From the NCBI GenBank assembly GCA_029007985.1, contig JAQXIW010000031.1, positions 1 through 64,000 on the forward strand: 64,000 nt of DNA. Direction: 5' to 3'. A program made the translations under genes and the position numbers. This stretch comes from Oscillospiraceae bacterium. Its GTDB lineage: Bacteria > Bacillota > Clostridia > Oscillospirales > Ruminococcaceae. The notes under the pieces are model-generated. The model was not told the DNA's origin, made no database searches, and worked only from the letters and a program-made list of their open reading frames with translations. Positions 38,922 to 54,223 of the stretch are shown here, piece by piece; within the stretch, counting starts at the first letter, position 1; each line of letters begins with the position of its first letter.

Positions 38922-40295
38922 TCACTTTTCGTCTTTTGATTTGACCGTGTTTACCACGAGAGCCGTGAGAGCAAACAGGGCCAAGGCATTAGGGATAACC
39001 ATCAGCTGATTAAACATATCCGACAATTCCCAAACCAAGTCGTTTTCCGCCAATGTGCCCATAAATATAAAAGCCATTGCTATTATTGTGTATATCTTTG
39101 TCCGCTTTTTGCCGAAAAGGTATTCCACATTTATTTTGCCGAATAAATTCCAGCTGAGAATGGTTGAGAAGGCAAAGAAGAAAAGACAGACAGCTACGAA
39201 CATAGAGCCTACGCTTGCGCCGAAAGCAACTCCGAATGCCGTCTGGGCGAGATTTGCCTTACCTATTCCGTCCGGAATAACGCCGCTTCCCAAAATGCCA
39301 TCGCTCGTGTAGAGAGTAGAGATTATTACAAGGGCGTTCATTGTCAAAACTACAAATGTGTCGAGAAATACGCCCATCATGGCGACGACGCCTTGGTCAT
39401 GAGGGTTCTCAACTGTTGCAAGAGCGTGGGCGTGCGGCGTAGAACCCATACCGGCCTCATTGGAGAAAAGACCTCTCTTTACGCCCTGAGAAACCGCTGT
39501 TTTTATCGCATAACCGAATCCGCCGCCGATAATTGCCTGGGGCTTGAAAGCGTATCTGAAAATCATTGCGAAGGTTTCCGGTATGTACTTCGCCCTCATA
39601 GCAAGCACACCGAAGCCGCCGACTAAGAATATCAAAGCCATTACCGGCACTATTTTTTCCAAAACGGAAGCCAAACGGCTGTTGCCACCGATGAAAATTA
39701 CAAAGCAGATAGCCAAAAGAATTAAGCCCGTAATCCAATTCGGAATACCGAAAGCCGTGTTCATTGTCGAGCCGATGGAGTTGGACTGTACCATACAGCC
39801 GAAAAAGCCCAGAGCAAGTATTGTCGCCACGGAAAAGAATCTTGCCAGCGCCTTGCCGAAGCTTCCCTTAAAAGCCGTAGTGATGTAATATGCCGGGCCG
39901 CCGGAAACAGAGCCGTCGGCGTTTTCAATTCTCGTCTTTTGAGCGAGCACGGCCTCGGAATAAATTGTAGCCATGCCGAAAAAGGCGATAATCCACATCC
40001 AGAAAATTGCGCCCGGGCCGCCGGTCAGTATTGCACCCGACGCACCGACAATATTACCTGTGCCGACCTGTGCGGCGACGGCGGTTGCAAGAGCCTGAAA
40101 GGACGACATACCGCTTTGCTGCTTTTCGCCGTTGAGATTGATATTGCCGAAAACTTTTTTCCAACCCTCGCCGAAATATCTTATCTGGACAAACCTTGTT
40201 TTAATGCTGTACCAAAGACCGACGCCGATAAGCAAAATAATCAAAATATAGTCGGATAGATAAGAATTGATTTTTGAAACAATAGACAGTAACAT
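38922..40295 (-). CDS. Sodium:alanine/glycine symporter, AGCS family
   Basis: ATAVAAQVGTGNIVGASGAILTGGPGAIFWMW; GLFSNEAGMGSTPHAHA; glycine riboswitch upstream. Confidence 0.95.
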   Translation of the reverse strand: MLLSIVSKINSYLSDYILIILLIGVGLWYSIKTRFVQIRYFGEGWKKVFGNINLNGEKQQSGMSSFQALATAVAAQVGTGNIVGASGAILTGGPGAIFWMWIIAFFGMATIYSEAVLAQKTRIENADGSVSGGPAYYITTAFKGSFGKALARFFSVATILALGFFGCMVQSNSIGSTMNTAFGIPNWITGLILLAICFVIFIGGNSRLASVLEKIVPVMALIFLVGGFGVLAMRAKYIPETFAMIFRYAFKPQAIIGGGFGYAIKTAVSQGVKRGLFSNEAGMGSTPHAHALATVENPHDQGVVAMMGVFLDTFVVLTMNALVIISTLYTSDGILGSGVIPDGIGKANLAQTAFGVAFGASVGSMFVAVCLFFFAFSTILSWNLFGKINVEYLFGKKRTKIYTIIAMAFIFMGTLAENDLVWELSDMFNQLMVIPNALALFALTALVVNTVKSKDEK

Positions 40296-40415: not shown

Positions 40416-40520
40416 AAGGATGTAAAATTTCTCCATTCTTTTGCCTGAGAGATTGAGCGGCGTACCGCCTTGCCCCTTCGGCACCTGATTTAACAGGATT
40501 CTCCGGAGTGTCCTCTGTGT
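40416..40520 (-). ncRNA. Glycine riboswitch (apparently a single aptamer)
   Basis: Minus strand AGGACACTCCGGAGAATCCTGTTAAATCAGGTGCCGAAGGGGCAAGGCGGTACGCCGCTCAATCTCTCAGGCAAAAGAATGGAG...ACATCCT; GCCGAAGGGGCAA and CTCAGGCAAAAG cores. Confidence 0.88.
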
Positions 40521-47533: not shown

Positions 47534-47607
47534 TTTTCTTGTATATCAGAGTGAAATATATTAGAATATTCATAAAAAGGTCGTAAATTTATAAAAAGAG
47601 GTATGTA

Positions 47608-49731
47608 ATGAACGAATACGATGCGATTAAAGCAAAAATTCCTGGCGAAGAAACAGGTATTGAAATCAAACATTCGATATGCGCGATTTGTTCGCCTGCG
47701 CCGCACTGCGGCCTCACATGTTATGTAAAGGACGGCGAGCTGATTAAGGTCGACGGCTGGAAAGAACATCCCGACTCAAAGGGCGGTATGTGTACAAAAG
47801 GTCGCTCCAACAGGGAATGGCTGTACAGAAAAGACAGAATACTCTATCCGCTGAAAAGAGTGGGCGAAAGAGGCGAGGGAAAGTTTGAAAGAATATCCTG
47901 GGAGGAGGCCTACGATATAATCGCCGAAAAATTGAACGGCGTCAAAGCCGAATACGGTGCTGACAAGGTGGCGTTTTACTCCGGATACAACAAATGGTAC
48001 AGAAGTATGCTGGCAAGATTTGCCCATTCGTTTGGCTCGCAGTCCTACGGCACGGAACATTCCTCATGTTTTGCGTCGGGGCTTATGGCCTGGCAATGCG
48101 CCACTGGTATGGAAATGGGTATGAATCTGGGAGCAAAATTGGTAATAGGCTGGGCCTGCAACGGCTACTATTCAATGTATAAATTGCCGATGGGCATTGA
48201 AATGCTGAAAAAATACGGAATGAAATACATTGTTATCGACCCGAAAATCACCCCGGCGTCCGCAAGATTTGCCGATTTGCATCTGCGCCCTCGTCTGGGT
48301 ACCGACGGCGCTCTTGCGCTCACAATGGCAAACACCCTTATTCAAAACGGCTGGATTGACAGAGAGTACATTTCAAAATATGTACACGGTTTTGAAGAAT
48401 ATCGGGAGAGTGTAAAGGACTACACGCTTGAAAAGGGCGAAGAGCTGACAGGCGTGCCGGCTCGGGATATTATGAAGGCTGTGGAAATGATAAGAGACGC
48501 CCGGTCTGTTTCTATTACCGAATCCTCCGCCCCGTTGGCACATCACCACAACGGCATGCAAAACTATCGTTGTATTATGTCTTTGCTGGCTATCACCGGC
48601 AATATTGACACGAAAGGCGGTCAGTCGCCGAGTGAATCATCCTTTGCCGAAAGAAGCACGGGCTATATGACCGGCGAGCCGAAATTTATGGCGGAAACCT
48701 ATCCTCATAATGCGGCAAAAGCCGTCGGCGCCGATGTGCACCCGCTTTGGTATGCGCTCAGACACGATATGCAGGCAAACGATTTGGCTGACAACATTCT
48801 TGCACAGGACGGCAATTCAATAAAGGCTCTCTACGCCCACGGCATGAACTACCGTATGTTTGCCGAGGACAAAAGATGGCTTGAAGCCTTCAAAAAGCTG
48901 GATTTCTTTGTGGATGTCGATTTGTTCATGACGGACTCGGCAAAGTGGGCTGATATTGTATTGCCGTGTTGTACTTCGCTTGAAAGAAGCGAATTCAAGG
49001 GCTATCCGGGTATGTATATAATGTACACCCACCCTGTCGTGCAGCCTCTCGGCGAGTCAAAGCGAGATGTGGATATTATCACCGAACTTGCCAACGCGAT
49101 GGAAATAGACGATGAGCTGCTGTGCTCCGGCTATGAGAACTGCGTAAAATATATGTTTAAGGACATACCGGTAGACCTTGACGATGTCATGCGGAGAGAC
49201 GGCGAGGTAATTAAAATTGAGGGCATTGCCCCATACGAAACCGGCACTATGCTGAAAAACGGCTGGCCTACCACCACCGGCAAAATTGAGCTCAAAAACG
49301 AGATTATAGCCGCTCATCCGGAATGGGGGCTGGACGCTTTGCCGACCTATGTGCCGCCGATAAATCCAAACCCGGAAAAATATCCGCTTTTGCTGTGCTC
49401 CGGGGCGAGAAAACCTAATATGCTTCATTCAAGACTGCACGATTCACCGTGGGAAAGAAGCCTGACGGGCGACCCGGTTTTGGAAATAAACAGCGTCGAC
49501 GGCAAGAGACTCGGCATTGAGTCGGGCGACGAAGTGGAACTGACTACATCCATAGGCTCTCTTGTATTCAAAGCGGAGCTCACCGGCACAGTCATGGAGG
49601 GTCAGGTCAATGTTTACCACGGGTACAGAGAAAAAGATATTAACAGCATTATTCCGTACAAAGAGCTTGCCGACCCGTATTCCGGCTACCCGGCGTACAG
49701 AGAAGCATATTGCAGCGTAAGGAAGGTGTGA
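47608..49731 (+). CDS. Molybdopterin-dependent oxidoreductase (DMSO reductase superfamily) catalytic subunit
   Basis: 707 aa; Cys motif CAICSPAPHCGLTC...GGMCTKG; DKVAFYSGYNKWYRSMLARFAHSFGSQ; GHxG/C-terminal MoCo domain LEINSVDGKRLGIESGDEVEL. Confidence 0.92.
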   Translation: MNEYDAIKAKIPGEETGIEIKHSICAICSPAPHCGLTCYVKDGELIKVDGWKEHPDSKGGMCTKGRSNREWLYRKDRILYPLKRVGERGEGKFERISWEEAYDIIAEKLNGVKAEYGADKVAFYSGYNKWYRSMLARFAHSFGSQSYGTEHSSCFASGLMAWQCATGMEMGMNLGAKLVIGWACNGYYSMYKLPMGIEMLKKYGMKYIVIDPKITPASARFADLHLRPRLGTDGALALTMANTLIQNGWIDREYISKYVHGFEEYRESVKDYTLEKGEELTGVPARDIMKAVEMIRDARSVSITESSAPLAHHHNGMQNYRCIMSLLAITGNIDTKGGQSPSESSFAERSTGYMTGEPKFMAETYPHNAAKAVGADVHPLWYALRHDMQANDLADNILAQDGNSIKALYAHGMNYRMFAEDKRWLEAFKKLDFFVDVDLFMTDSAKWADIVLPCCTSLERSEFKGYPGMYIMYTHPVVQPLGESKRDVDIITELANAMEIDDELLCSGYENCVKYMFKDIPVDLDDVMRRDGEVIKIEGIAPYETGTMLKNGWPTTTGKIELKNEIIAAHPEWGLDALPTYVPPINPNPEKYPLLLCSGARKPNMLHSRLHDSPWERSLTGDPVLEINSVDGKRLGIESGDEVELTTSIGSLVFKAELTGTVMEGQVNVYHGYREKDINSIIPYKELADPYSGYPAYREAYCSVRKV

Positions 49732-49734
49732 ACT

Positions 49735-50247
49735 ATGGCAAAGAAAATAGAACTTGATATTTCCAGGTGCTGTGCTTGCGGCGCCTGTACAATCGCCTGT
49801 CTTGACCAGAACGACATCGACCTTTCAAGCGGAATAAGGCCTTTCAGGTCGGTTTTCACCCAAGAGCCCAATCTCGACGGCAATGTGCAATACTATTCCA
49901 TAGCATGTATGCATTGCACCGACGCGCCGTGCGTTCGGGCTTGTCCTTCGGGATGCCTCTACAAAGACAGCGCGACCGGTCTGACTCTCTACAACAACAC
50001 ATATTGCATAGGCTGTCATTCCTGCGCTATGGCTTGTCCTTTCGGTGCGCCTACATTCGCCCGGGATAACAAAATGCGCAAATGCGACGGTTGTATTGAC
50101 CGACTCAAAGCGGGCTTGGAGCCGGCATGTGTTTCGGCGTGCTATTTTAAGGCTCTGTATGTTGTAGACACAGAGGAAGAGAACGGTATTTCGGCGGAAA
50201 ATTCGCTTATTGCCATGTGCGAAGAGCTCGTCAAAAGTCAAAAATAA
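49735..50247 (+). CDS. 4Fe-4S dicluster ferredoxin-type electron transfer subunit (DmsB-like)
   Basis: CCACGACTIACLDQND; CMHCTDAPCVRACPSG; CIGCHSCAMACPFGAP; four Cys clusters; 3 nt after the upstream stop. Confidence 0.93.
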   Translation: MAKKIELDISRCCACGACTIACLDQNDIDLSSGIRPFRSVFTQEPNLDGNVQYYSIACMHCTDAPCVRACPSGCLYKDSATGLTLYNNTYCIGCHSCAMACPFGAPTFARDNKMRKCDGCIDRLKAGLEPACVSACYFKALYVVDTEEENGISAENSLIAMCEELVKSQK

Positions 50248-50327
50248 ATTATAATATCCTATTAAATATCCGGCTTTCGATTGAAAAGCCGGATATATTT
50301 TTGTATTATGTTTTTGGAGGTAATACG

Positions 50328-51257: not shown

Positions 51258-52637
51258 TTACTTTGAAAGTGAAAGCTTAACATCGCCGTTTTCCGAATAT
51301 TCAACAACATCCTTGTCGAGCATAAGGTCGGAAATGGATTCGAGATATTCAGGGATAGATGCAAAGAGAGGTTTGTAGTTGGCAATAATGCTCTTTGCCT
51401 TTGCCGCGTCATCAGAGAGAAGCTTATCCGCAACAAGAAGCTGTGCCTTTATCGAGTTGATAAGCAGTCTTTCAGGCTCCGGCAGATAGTAGTCGATACC
51501 GTGGCCCGTACCTATTGCGCCGCCCGCCTGGAACTGAACGCCCGGCATAACGCATGTTACATCGCCGAAGTCGGACGAGCCCGTAGACCAGCTTGTGTAA
51601 TCAAATCTGACTCTGTCTTTGCCCACCAGTTCTTCACAGCACTCCTGAACAAGCTCCATGTACTCTTTGTCGTGTACCTCAGGTGAATAGCCCGGCTTGT
51701 CGTCGATGTGCAATTCACATCCGATAGCCGCCGCAGCACCGGCGAGGGCACGGTTAAACTTTTTGTTTTCGCGCTTCATGGCCTCGATAGTCTTGCCTCT
51801 GACATAGCTCTCGATAACCATTTCGTCAGGAATGATGTTTACGGCACAGTTTACGCCCTTCATAATCGGGTGGAATCTGACCGTGTCTTTTTCTTGCAAT
51901 GTTTCTCTTAAATCGTTACATGCCTGTAAACCGAGCATTGCGGCGTACTGGGCGTTTACGCCGAGATGCGGTGCGCCGCCGGCGTGTGAAGACTTGCCCT
52001 TGTATGTGATGACCTTTGACATACAGCCGTTGTTGCCGTAGCCGCATGTAAAATCGAGCTTGTCGCCCATATTCGATGAGTGAACCATAAGAGAAATATC
52101 TACATCATCGAAATAACCTCTGTGCAAAAACTCAACCTTGCCGCCCATGTAGCTGACAACGCCGTCTTTAATGAGCTGTGAACGGTAAGCAAGCTGAATC
52201 ATCTCTTCGGCAGGTACCAGCATAAGTCTGATTTTGCCGGACAGACCTTCCAAAATAGCCGGCTCATTTTTCAGAGCAGCGGCGATCCCCAGCATTGTGG
52301 CAGCCTGTGCGCAGTGGCCGCAGGAATGGCACATACCGTTGACGGATTCAGGGTGGTTTGCGATGTCGAGAGCGTCGAGCTCGCCCATAATACAGAGAGT
52401 CGGGCCCTCTTTACCTGTGTCAATATCCGTGTAGAAGCCCGGAATCTTGCCGTATCTTTCGTCTTGGTCGGCTCTGACGAGCTTATAGCCCATTTCCTCG
52501 AATTTCTCAATGAGATATTCGTTTGCCTCCCATTCGGTGTAGCCTACCTGTGGGTGTTTCCAGATGTAGTCCATTGCCCGTGCAGACAGTTCTCTTACAG
52601 ACTCCGCCGCCTTGATAATCAATTCTTTCTTTGACAT
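51258..52637 (-). CDS. M20 family amidohydrolase (AbgB/aminobenzoyl-glutamate hydrolase-like)
   Basis: IWKHPQVGYTEWEANEYL; CHSCGHCAQAATMLGIA; STGSSDFGDVTCVMPGVQF. Confidence 0.9.
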   Translation of the reverse strand: MSKKELIIKAAESVRELSARAMDYIWKHPQVGYTEWEANEYLIEKFEEMGYKLVRADQDERYGKIPGFYTDIDTGKEGPTLCIMGELDALDIANHPESVNGMCHSCGHCAQAATMLGIAAALKNEPAILEGLSGKIRLMLVPAEEMIQLAYRSQLIKDGVVSYMGGKVEFLHRGYFDDVDISLMVHSSNMGDKLDFTCGYGNNGCMSKVITYKGKSSHAGGAPHLGVNAQYAAMLGLQACNDLRETLQEKDTVRFHPIMKGVNCAVNIIPDEMVIESYVRGKTIEAMKRENKKFNRALAGAAAAIGCELHIDDKPGYSPEVHDKEYMELVQECCEELVGKDRVRFDYTSWSTGSSDFGDVTCVMPGVQFQAGGAIGTGHGIDYYLPEPERLLINSIKAQLLVADKLLSDDAAKAKSIIANYKPLFASIPEYLESISDLMLDKDVVEYSENGDVKLSLSK

Positions 52638-52831
52638 TTTGTTTACCTCTTTCTGTGTAATACAGTTGTTATATTAAGTATAACATATAATGTTTATATA
52701 TAATAGAGTTATTTGGAGAAATATATTGATTTTGGAAAATATAACAATATAACTTTGACTTTCCGTCATAACGGCAATTAAGAAAACAAAGTAAAAATCC
52801 TCTCTTGCGAGAGGATTTTACAGGGGTAATA

Positions 52832-54223
52832 TCAGAATTCTTCAGGTTTCATCGGTGCAGAGTAGACATCTTCGTATGCCGGGATGTCAAGTGAGTGGAA
52901 TTCTTCCCACATCTTTGCGATTGTCTCTTCATCTCCGAAGAGGTCGAGAGCGCCCTGGGCAAGTACCTTACCGGCTCTTACAGCGCCTTTCATACCGACC
53001 TGTGTGCCGGAACAAGCTGTAACTGTCCAGTGGTGGCCCGGCAAGCCTTTGATTTCGCCGCCGCCGTGTACATGGGCAGTCGGGCAGAAATAAGACATAT
53101 CCGAAGCGTCTGTGGCGGTGAGCTCTTTCATGAGGCCTTCGTATGTCTTCTTTGCGGAAGGGAGAAGATCTTCCGGGTCTTCAGGGGCGTTTTCGGCGCC
53201 GAAATAGTTTTTGTACAAATCCTTTGCCCATTGGATTTCTTCTTCGGTGTATTCGATGTCAGGCACTTTCAAAGACGCCTCATAGAGCTTCTTTGAAAGA
53301 GTGTCGTTTGTATAGAAATAAGGGATAAGGAAGATTACACCGTAGTCAAGTTCTGTTTCTGTCTGCATAGCGGCGCCCTGTGCGCAAAGAACAACTCTTC
53401 TGAGCAGGTCCTTTGTAGTCTCGGTAGAGGCGGAGCGCAGGAAGTATTTGACGGAAGCAAAGTCAGGGACGATGTTAGGTGCCATACCGCCGTTTGTGAT
53501 CTGATAGTGGTAGATGCAGTCTTTTGTGACATGCTCTCTCAAAAATTCAGCACCCATGTTCATGAGCTGAACCGCGTCGAGCGATGAACGGCCGGCCCAA
53601 GGTCTTGTGGCATGGGCTGTCTTGCCGTGGAATTCAAAGTTGACGCCCATCATACACAGGCCGTGCTGAGGCTCTGTGTTAAATTCAGCCGAGCCCGGAT
53701 GCCACATGATACATGCGTCGCAGTCGCTCCACATGCCGTCAAATGCGAGCAGCGATTTGCCGCGGCCGACTTCTTCGCCCGGGGCTTCTACAAGCTTGAG
53801 AGTGCCTTTTACGCCCTCTTTTTCCATGGCGTATCTGAGAGCACAGGCGGCGCCCATACAGGAGCCGGCAATCAGGTTGTGGCCGCAGCCGTGTCCGGCG
53901 CCTTCGATTTCATCTTTGTAAGGCGAATCCGACTGACCCAAACCCGGCAGAGCGTCCAGCTCGCCGACGATGGCGATAACCGGTTTGCCCTCGCCGTATG
54001 TGGCGAAAACGGTGTTAGGATTGTCGCTCGGCTTAATACCCTGACCTGCTCTCATAAGCATTGCGTCCGGGAAACCGTGTGTTTTTGCAAATTCGGCGGC
54101 TCTCTTTGCGGCGTATCCGTTTTTCAGACCTGTTTCAGGATGTGCCCAGATATCGTGCATCATCTCGTCAAGTTCTGCTTCGTAGAGGTCGTACCATTCT
54201 TTGATCCATTTGTTAAGACTCAT
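52832..54223 (-). CDS. M20 family amidohydrolase (AbgA/AbgB-like)
   Basis: DIWAHPETGLKNGYAAKRAAEF; IEGAGHGCGHNLIAGSCMGAA; FHGKTAHATRPWAGRSSLDAVQLM. Confidence 0.9.
   Translation of the reverse strand: MSLNKWIKEWYDLYEAELDEMMHDIWAHPETGLKNGYAAKRAAEFAKTHGFPDAMLMRAGQGIKPSDNPNTVFATYGEGKPVIAIVGELDALPGLGQSDSPYKDEIEGAGHGCGHNLIAGSCMGAACALRYAMEKEGVKGTLKLVEAPGEEVGRGKSLLAFDGMWSDCDACIMWHPGSAEFNTEPQHGLCMMGVNFEFHGKTAHATRPWAGRSSLDAVQLMNMGAEFLREHVTKDCIYHYQITNGGMAPNIVPDFASVKYFLRSASTETTKDLLRRVVLCAQGAAMQTETELDYGVIFLIPYFYTNDTLSKKLYEASLKVPDIEYTEEEIQWAKDLYKNYFGAENAPEDPEDLLPSAKKTYEGLMKELTATDASDMSYFCPTAHVHGGGEIKGLPGHHWTVTACSGTQVGMKGAVRAGKVLAQGALDLFGDEETIAKMWEEFHSLDIPAYEDVYSAPMKPEEF

Follow-up and report, generated by a model that had tools for sequence, protein, structure and literature searches.

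The gene pair A–B in the window, that is, in the whole stretch of 64,000 nucleotides that was analysed, probably encodes a soluble NAD(P)H-linked reductase that operates in Moco auxotrophs and is fed by Moco salvage. Likewise, it seems likely that the gut Bacillota carrying such genes (MAGs labelled Oscillospiraceae and Erysipelotrichaceae) are Moco auxotrophs with a dedicated riboswitch-controlled uptake and salvage pathway, encoded beside the molybdoenzyme that it feeds. The computed basis is gene content, co-location, the riboswitch, the lack of MoaA and MoeA, a retained cofactor pocket and purifying selection. The main point overlooked by the original prediction is that the hosts of the clade show neither MoaA nor MoeA.

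The catalytic subunit A (type 1) is encoded at positions 47608..49731 of the plus strand, has 707 aa and an ATG start, and is preceded by the ribosome-binding site AGAGG (47597..47601, plus strand), seen in the sequence. It is a bis-MGD protein of the MopB/DMSO reductase superfamily, as the Pfam domains Molybdop_Fe4S4, Molybdopterin and Molydop_binding all score above their cut-offs. The start codon of the electron-transfer subunit B (49735..50247, plus strand, 170 aa) lies 3 nt past the stop codon of A, and hence the predicted layout of two genes on one strand is real. B is a DmsB-like ferredoxin for four [4Fe-4S] clusters; it has four Cys clusters and is conserved next to A in relatives. The A–B transcription unit ends at an intrinsic terminator found by a pattern scan (50266..50296, plus strand), with a 12-bp stem and a T tail. 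Past it, on the other strand (51258–54223) and convergent with A–B, lie two M20-family amidohydrolase/peptidase genes in tandem, for which no link to A–B was found. The window also contains a glycine riboswitch (RF00504, 58 bits, 40423–40516, minus strand) upstream of the same-strand ORF 38922–40295. The Rfam scan of the window yields no Moco riboswitch, so A–B itself is not seen under one.

The catalytic subunit had been described as lacking a Tat signal and retaining an Fe–S Cys motif, and this is borne out: residues 1–40 contain no RR motif, the protein has neither a signal peptide nor a hydrophobic or transmembrane segment, and the motif C25-x2-C28-x5-C34-x27-C62 is present, its four Cys being invariant in an alignment of 12 sequences. 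The proposed check of the metal ligand near EHSSCFASG points to C154, the counterpart in the alignment of the Cys that binds the metal in acetylene hydratase, NapA and PsrA. Anchor and chaperone genes, noted earlier as missing from the neighbourhood, are also missing from the whole 96%-complete genome, which has no NrfD and no NarJ/TorD/DmsD, and no FdhD either. With neither a Tat signal, nor an NrfD/DmsC anchor, nor a TorD/DmsD chaperone, A is a soluble cytoplasmic-type MopB enzyme and not a respiratory one of the DmsABC/PsrABC type, as originally suggested. Orthologues 78–80% identical to A are present in ruminant-gut MAGs; the genes flanking type-1 A are not conserved. The predicted model of A, built on 12 sequences, resembles the folds of FDH and acetylene hydratase; its confidence is moderate (pLDDT 70.5), and hence we base no argument about the active site on it.

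The pair is not alone in its genome. Contig C26 carries a gene for a 422-aa flavoprotein C, followed by a second MopB gene, 68% identical to A, and by its own B. In the PDB, C comes closest to 8c0z_E, which carries the annotation of a ferredoxin:NADH oxidoreductase-like subunit of an aldehyde oxidoreductase, and its NCBIfam match is PadH; these matches make C an NAD(P)H flavoprotein resembling AorC and PadH. Most of the 30 sequences of one clade belong to such a C-A-B unit, whose genes overlap or nearly touch. Thus the term "two-subunit" in the original prediction is right in that A and B are adjacent and incomplete in that, in relatives, an NAD(P)H flavoprotein is encoded as a third subunit. 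Since the window's genome has a single C, and none beside the window A–B, the window pair would share in trans the C of the paralogous unit. At locus L232, one C stands between the two A–B pairs in an unbroken series of genes. The ferredoxin beside A and the flavoprotein in relatives speak for redox chemistry, but in two Solobacterium MAGs (L016, L024) type-1 A stands alone with no adjoining B or C, the C-A-B unit being located elsewhere.

Twenty-four genomes were searched with HMMs for two families of the Moco pathway, MoaA (PF06463) and MoeA (PF03453). Twelve of them carry the close clade of A (defined by a threshold of at least 58%) and ten hold remoter members. MoaA was found in none of the 12 close-clade genomes, which are MAGs and not independent of each other, and in all ten genomes with remoter members, and MoeA showed the same split (0/12 vs 10/10). 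The close-clade genomes include one of the same genus that is 100% complete (G102), one that is 99% complete (G062) and the window's own genome (96%). Since the same two families are missing in 12 of 12 MAGs, one of them 100% complete, an assembly gap is not the cause. Further, a tblastn comparison of E. coli MoaA–E with 1.35 of the 1.63 Mb of the window's genome yielded only a 26% partial match of MoaA (E 4e-4). In the control loci, MoaA, MoaB and MoaC were matched strongly, and a positive control was lacking for MoaD and MoaE. Hosts of the clade thus appear unable to make Moco. MoaA and MoeA are also absent from two other genomes, 99–100% complete (G146 and G087), where different MopB genes adjoin an unfused MobA; no ECFS, PruR-like gene or Moco riboswitch is seen beside MopB–MobA at these loci (L075 and L233, respectively).

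Matches to PF12804 beside C-A-B led to a conserved block of three genes, encoding an S component (ECFS), a small protein and a kinase–MobA fusion. The block lies by C-A-B in ten of the 12 MoaA-less genomes and beside A in none of the ten MoaA-positive loci, inspected in the vicinity of A; as the genomes are related, the Fisher p of about 1e-4 for this association is inflated by shared descent. The usual order is C-A-B-ECFS-small protein-kinase–MobA, with a convergent arrangement in L017 and L018. The operon is split over two contigs in one genome (G550), its fusion gene is broken by a frameshift in another (G553), and a third close-clade genome (G547), with a short contig, has neither the operon nor the fusion.

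ECFS belongs to the S-component family, with PF09819 found in nine of nine proteins and several hydrophobic segments. The small protein has PF00174 (9/9) and one N-terminal transmembrane helix. Its AlphaFold model (pLDDT 81) matches the pterin-binding PruR (7kom, E 3.5e-6) in a Foldseek search, as well as the Moco domains of sulfite oxidases, with E of about 5e-5 for sulfite dehydrogenases. No true relative of the small protein or of the S component emerged from profile searches of the PDB, and the former is placed by the fold search only; going by the model, it is a membrane-anchored protein of the PruR/sulfite-oxidase fold, pterin-binding-like. In eight of eight fusions, the C-terminal half is MobA, scoring 122 bits vs 70 for MocA, a score below the curated cut-off for whole-protein MobA (164), and it contains the MobA motifs LAGG..RMG..K, GP, PCDxP and NxNTP. 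The N-terminal half is kinase-like, with the canonical kinase residues K14, E25, D95, N100 and D112-F-E invariant.

In each of the eight loci examined at first, the Moco riboswitch RF01055 immediately precedes ECFS (57–74 bits, threshold 36). The same holds for further loci, and the riboswitch stands before the operon in every example with that stretch assembled; all hits, including the one on contig C2 of the window's genome, score 56–76 bits. All the folded examples are predicted to have a hairpin at the place of P3, with arms that differ between examples and are mostly complementary, and the form of the Moco riboswitch with a P3 stem has been tied to Mo rather than W (PMC2408646). The P1 helix of the operon riboswitches (L108 4596–4726, L073 6501–6636 and others) is a variant one, AUUUCGA...GAAAAGAAAU against the usual CUCCGA...GGAAAGGAG, with compensatory changes.

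In the window's genome, an RF01055 riboswitch lies at the very end of contig C2 and faces outward (56 bits with the Rfam model, 79 bits with a model built here). Contig C40 begins with a 47-residue MobA-like C-terminal tail, which fits the kinase fusion and an ordinary MobA alike. In the 83% of this genome that was read, neither ECFS nor the small protein turned up. On the simplest reading, the operon falls in the assembly gap at the edges of C2 and C40, and it would be intact in this genome.

The hosts might still synthesise Moco de novo through diverged or non-homologous substitutes of MoaA and MoeA, the S component being accessory and importing, for example, another pterin or a precursor. 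New biosynthetic components are indeed among the options given by Peng et al. (PMC6147048); moreover, the HMMs covered two pathway families in all genomes, and the window's genome was read in part. However, two unrelated enzymes, of the first step and of metal insertion, are missing together in 12 of 12 genomes, the same models do match in genomes of the same family (G064, G085), and the S component, the pterin-binding-like protein and the kinase–MobA fusion make sense as uptake and rebuilding. Hence we regard de novo synthesis as unlikely.

Several features indicate that A still uses the cofactor. Thirty-five outside Moco enzymes share 67 conserved columns, of which 88% are retained in the close clade and 90% in the MoaA-positive members, compared to 51% in the Moco-less NuoG. 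The ligand Cys is present in 18 of the 18 close-clade proteins. The dN/dS of A, for pairs with unsaturated dS, is 0.02–0.15, demonstrating strong purifying selection. From its sequence, A looks still Moco-dependent. The alternative is that A has become Moco-independent, keeping the fold but binding no molybdopterin and serving as an Fe–S electron-transfer scaffold, in the manner of NuoG, a known MopB-fold protein without Moco. The absence of MoaA and MoeA is in line with this, and Mo-independent forms are one option for orphan molybdoproteins in the BMC Genomics 2018 paper (PMC6147048). Still, Cys154 and the superfamily positions are kept as well as in the MoaA-positive relatives, NuoG retaining only half of them, and the adjacent Moco riboswitch, the MobA domain and the Moco-fold/PruR-like protein in relatives would be needless for a cofactor-free protein. 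We thus consider the loss of the cofactor very improbable.

The riboswitch operon could also import other cargo, molybdate or an unrelated vitamin, and adjoin the enzyme genes by chance: PF09819 includes S components of other specificity, and molybdate transporters are also found under the control of Moco riboswitches (PMC2408646). But molybdate is useless without MoaA and MoeA, the substrate of MobA is molybdopterin, the small protein has its matches among folds that bind pterins and Moco, and the block stays intact also in the two loci where it is inverted relative to C-A-B (L017, L018). There is little chance that this is the case.

We then consider the relationship of A to known enzymes. 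In a maximum-likelihood tree (quick mode, SH-aLRT, with long branches), the window protein belongs to a 30-row clade with support 100, whose sister group has Tat-type proteins among its members; the clade excludes FDHs, NapA, PsrA, DmsA/TorA and acetylene hydratase. Clustering with characterised formate or polysulfide/DMSO enzymes, named in the original prediction as counter-evidence, was looked for in this tree and not seen, nor does A group with characterised TMAO or nitrate enzymes. FDHs form a separate branch; together with the score of A far below the Fdh-alpha cut-off and the genome without FdhD, this sets A apart from formate dehydrogenases. All 18 close-clade proteins have L instead of P in the PGTD motif (position 230 of the window protein) and lack the PYP motif near 402–404, common to the MoaA-positive members.

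The three kinships proposed originally are not supported. Acetylene hydratase is the best PDB profile match of A, but only tied with PsrA (272.9 vs 272.5 bits), and the second match in the fold search with the model; in the tree, with the reservation of quick mode and long branches, it groups with L050/L058/L059 outside a fully supported 34-row clade. Pyrogallol transhydroxylase (large subunit of 4v4c) is far lower, 111 bits vs 273 for acetylene hydratase and PsrA. Catechol dehydroxylases were compared by their descriptions in PMC7028382. In the soluble Gordonibacter type, the catalytic subunit is described as devoid of the canonical 4Fe-4S motif, which, set against the four-Cys motif of A, speaks against this type; the E. 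lenta-type enzyme has a Tat signal and an anchor, whereas A has neither RR nor a hydrophobic segment and the genome no NrfD. The idea of an ordinary soluble two-subunit enzyme of the acetylene hydratase, transhydroxylase or catechol dehydroxylase type, its cofactor genes merely unassembled, agrees with the soluble layout, the genome being a MAG and the acetylene hydratase matches, but deserves hardly any credence, given the position of acetylene hydratase in the tree, the redox chemistry suggested by the flavoprotein and the lack of the same two families even in the complete MAG. No characterised enzyme is close to A. The uric-acid pathway enzymes XdhD/YgfK were considered and set aside, as they belong to other families. 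A plasmid collection yielded only distant matches of MopB and MobA. Genes for TRAP, DASS or Na+/H+ carriers and UbiD/fumarate-reductase-like genes occur close to remoter members of the family and hint at an organic acid as the substrate, though at none in particular; nitrogenase-like genes (NifH-type and related) are close to three remoter members (L025, L060, L064).

Returning to the preferred reading, a reductase of Moco auxotrophs fed by salvage, we propose the following scheme. Outside the cell, the anchored protein of the PruR/sulfite-oxidase fold would capture a compound, presumably of the molybdopterin type, that would then be imported by the ECF-type S component. For this route to yield MGD in cells lacking MoaA and MoeA, the metal must already be in place in the compound taken up. 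The kinase domain would re-phosphorylate the imported compound, its putative substrate, and the MobA domain would attach GMP, yielding MGD for A. This order of steps is suggested by the domain functions and by the parallel with CobU, the kinase/guanylyltransferase of cobinamide salvage, which phosphorylates and guanylylates a salvaged cofactor. Electrons would pass from NAD(P)H to FAD in C, through the four [4Fe-4S] clusters of B to the [4Fe-4S] cluster and Mo-bis-MGD of A, and on to an organic substrate, the flow probably running in this direction; A would reduce this substrate in the cytoplasm, with NADH as the probable driver.

According to PMC9793310, Moco is generally held to be made by every cell that needs it, and the crossing of membranes by Moco is unexplained. 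Peng et al. 2018 (PMC6147048) report about 300 bacterial genomes with molybdoenzymes but without the Moco pathway and call for tests of Mo/W use. We found no precedent of bacterial Moco salvage, uptake or ECF import among open-licence PMC papers. In the present case, a clade that lacks MoaA and MoeA throughout has, under a Moco riboswitch, candidates for the transporter, the receptor and the rebuilding enzyme; this makes the question testable with named genes. If the prediction is true, Moco joins the cofactors traded in gut communities.

Acetylene hydratase of Pelobacter acetylenicus (2e7z) resembles A in being soluble, with bis-MGD, one [4Fe-4S] cluster and a Cys metal ligand, and the alignment of the two covers the full length (identity 25%; TM-score against the model of A 0.77); it is a stand-alone, non-redox hydratase, whereas A has a ferredoxin partner and, in relatives, a flavoprotein one. 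The Gordonibacter-type catechol dehydroxylases share with A–B solubility, a small 4Fe-4S partner, the lack of a Tat signal and gut bacteria as hosts (PMC7028382). The tungsten aldehyde oxidoreductase AorABC (8c0z) and the phenylglyoxylate dehydrogenase with PadH have the electron path proposed here, through an NAD(P)H flavoprotein and a multi-cluster ferredoxin, but their catalytic subunits are from the AOR or 2-oxoacid oxidoreductase families, whereas A is from the MopB superfamily. The close clade is similar to the orphan molybdoprotein organisms of PMC6147048 in having Moco enzymes without the biosynthetic pathway, and the proposed salvage to dietary Moco uptake in C. elegans (PMC9793310), where ready-made Moco is acquired; the available parts of both papers name no transporter or salvage genes, whereas a candidate gene set is given here. 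Finally, the putative operon follows the plan of ECF vitamin salvage and cobinamide salvage, with an S component, phosphorylation followed by guanylylation, and riboswitch control, and differs in its predicted cargo, molybdopterin, in the guanylyltransferase, MobA, and in the added anchored protein of the PruR/sulfite-oxidase fold. Hence the parts, the ECF S component, the kinase, MobA and the riboswitch, are familiar, and what would be new is the predicted uptake and salvage of Moco in bacteria.
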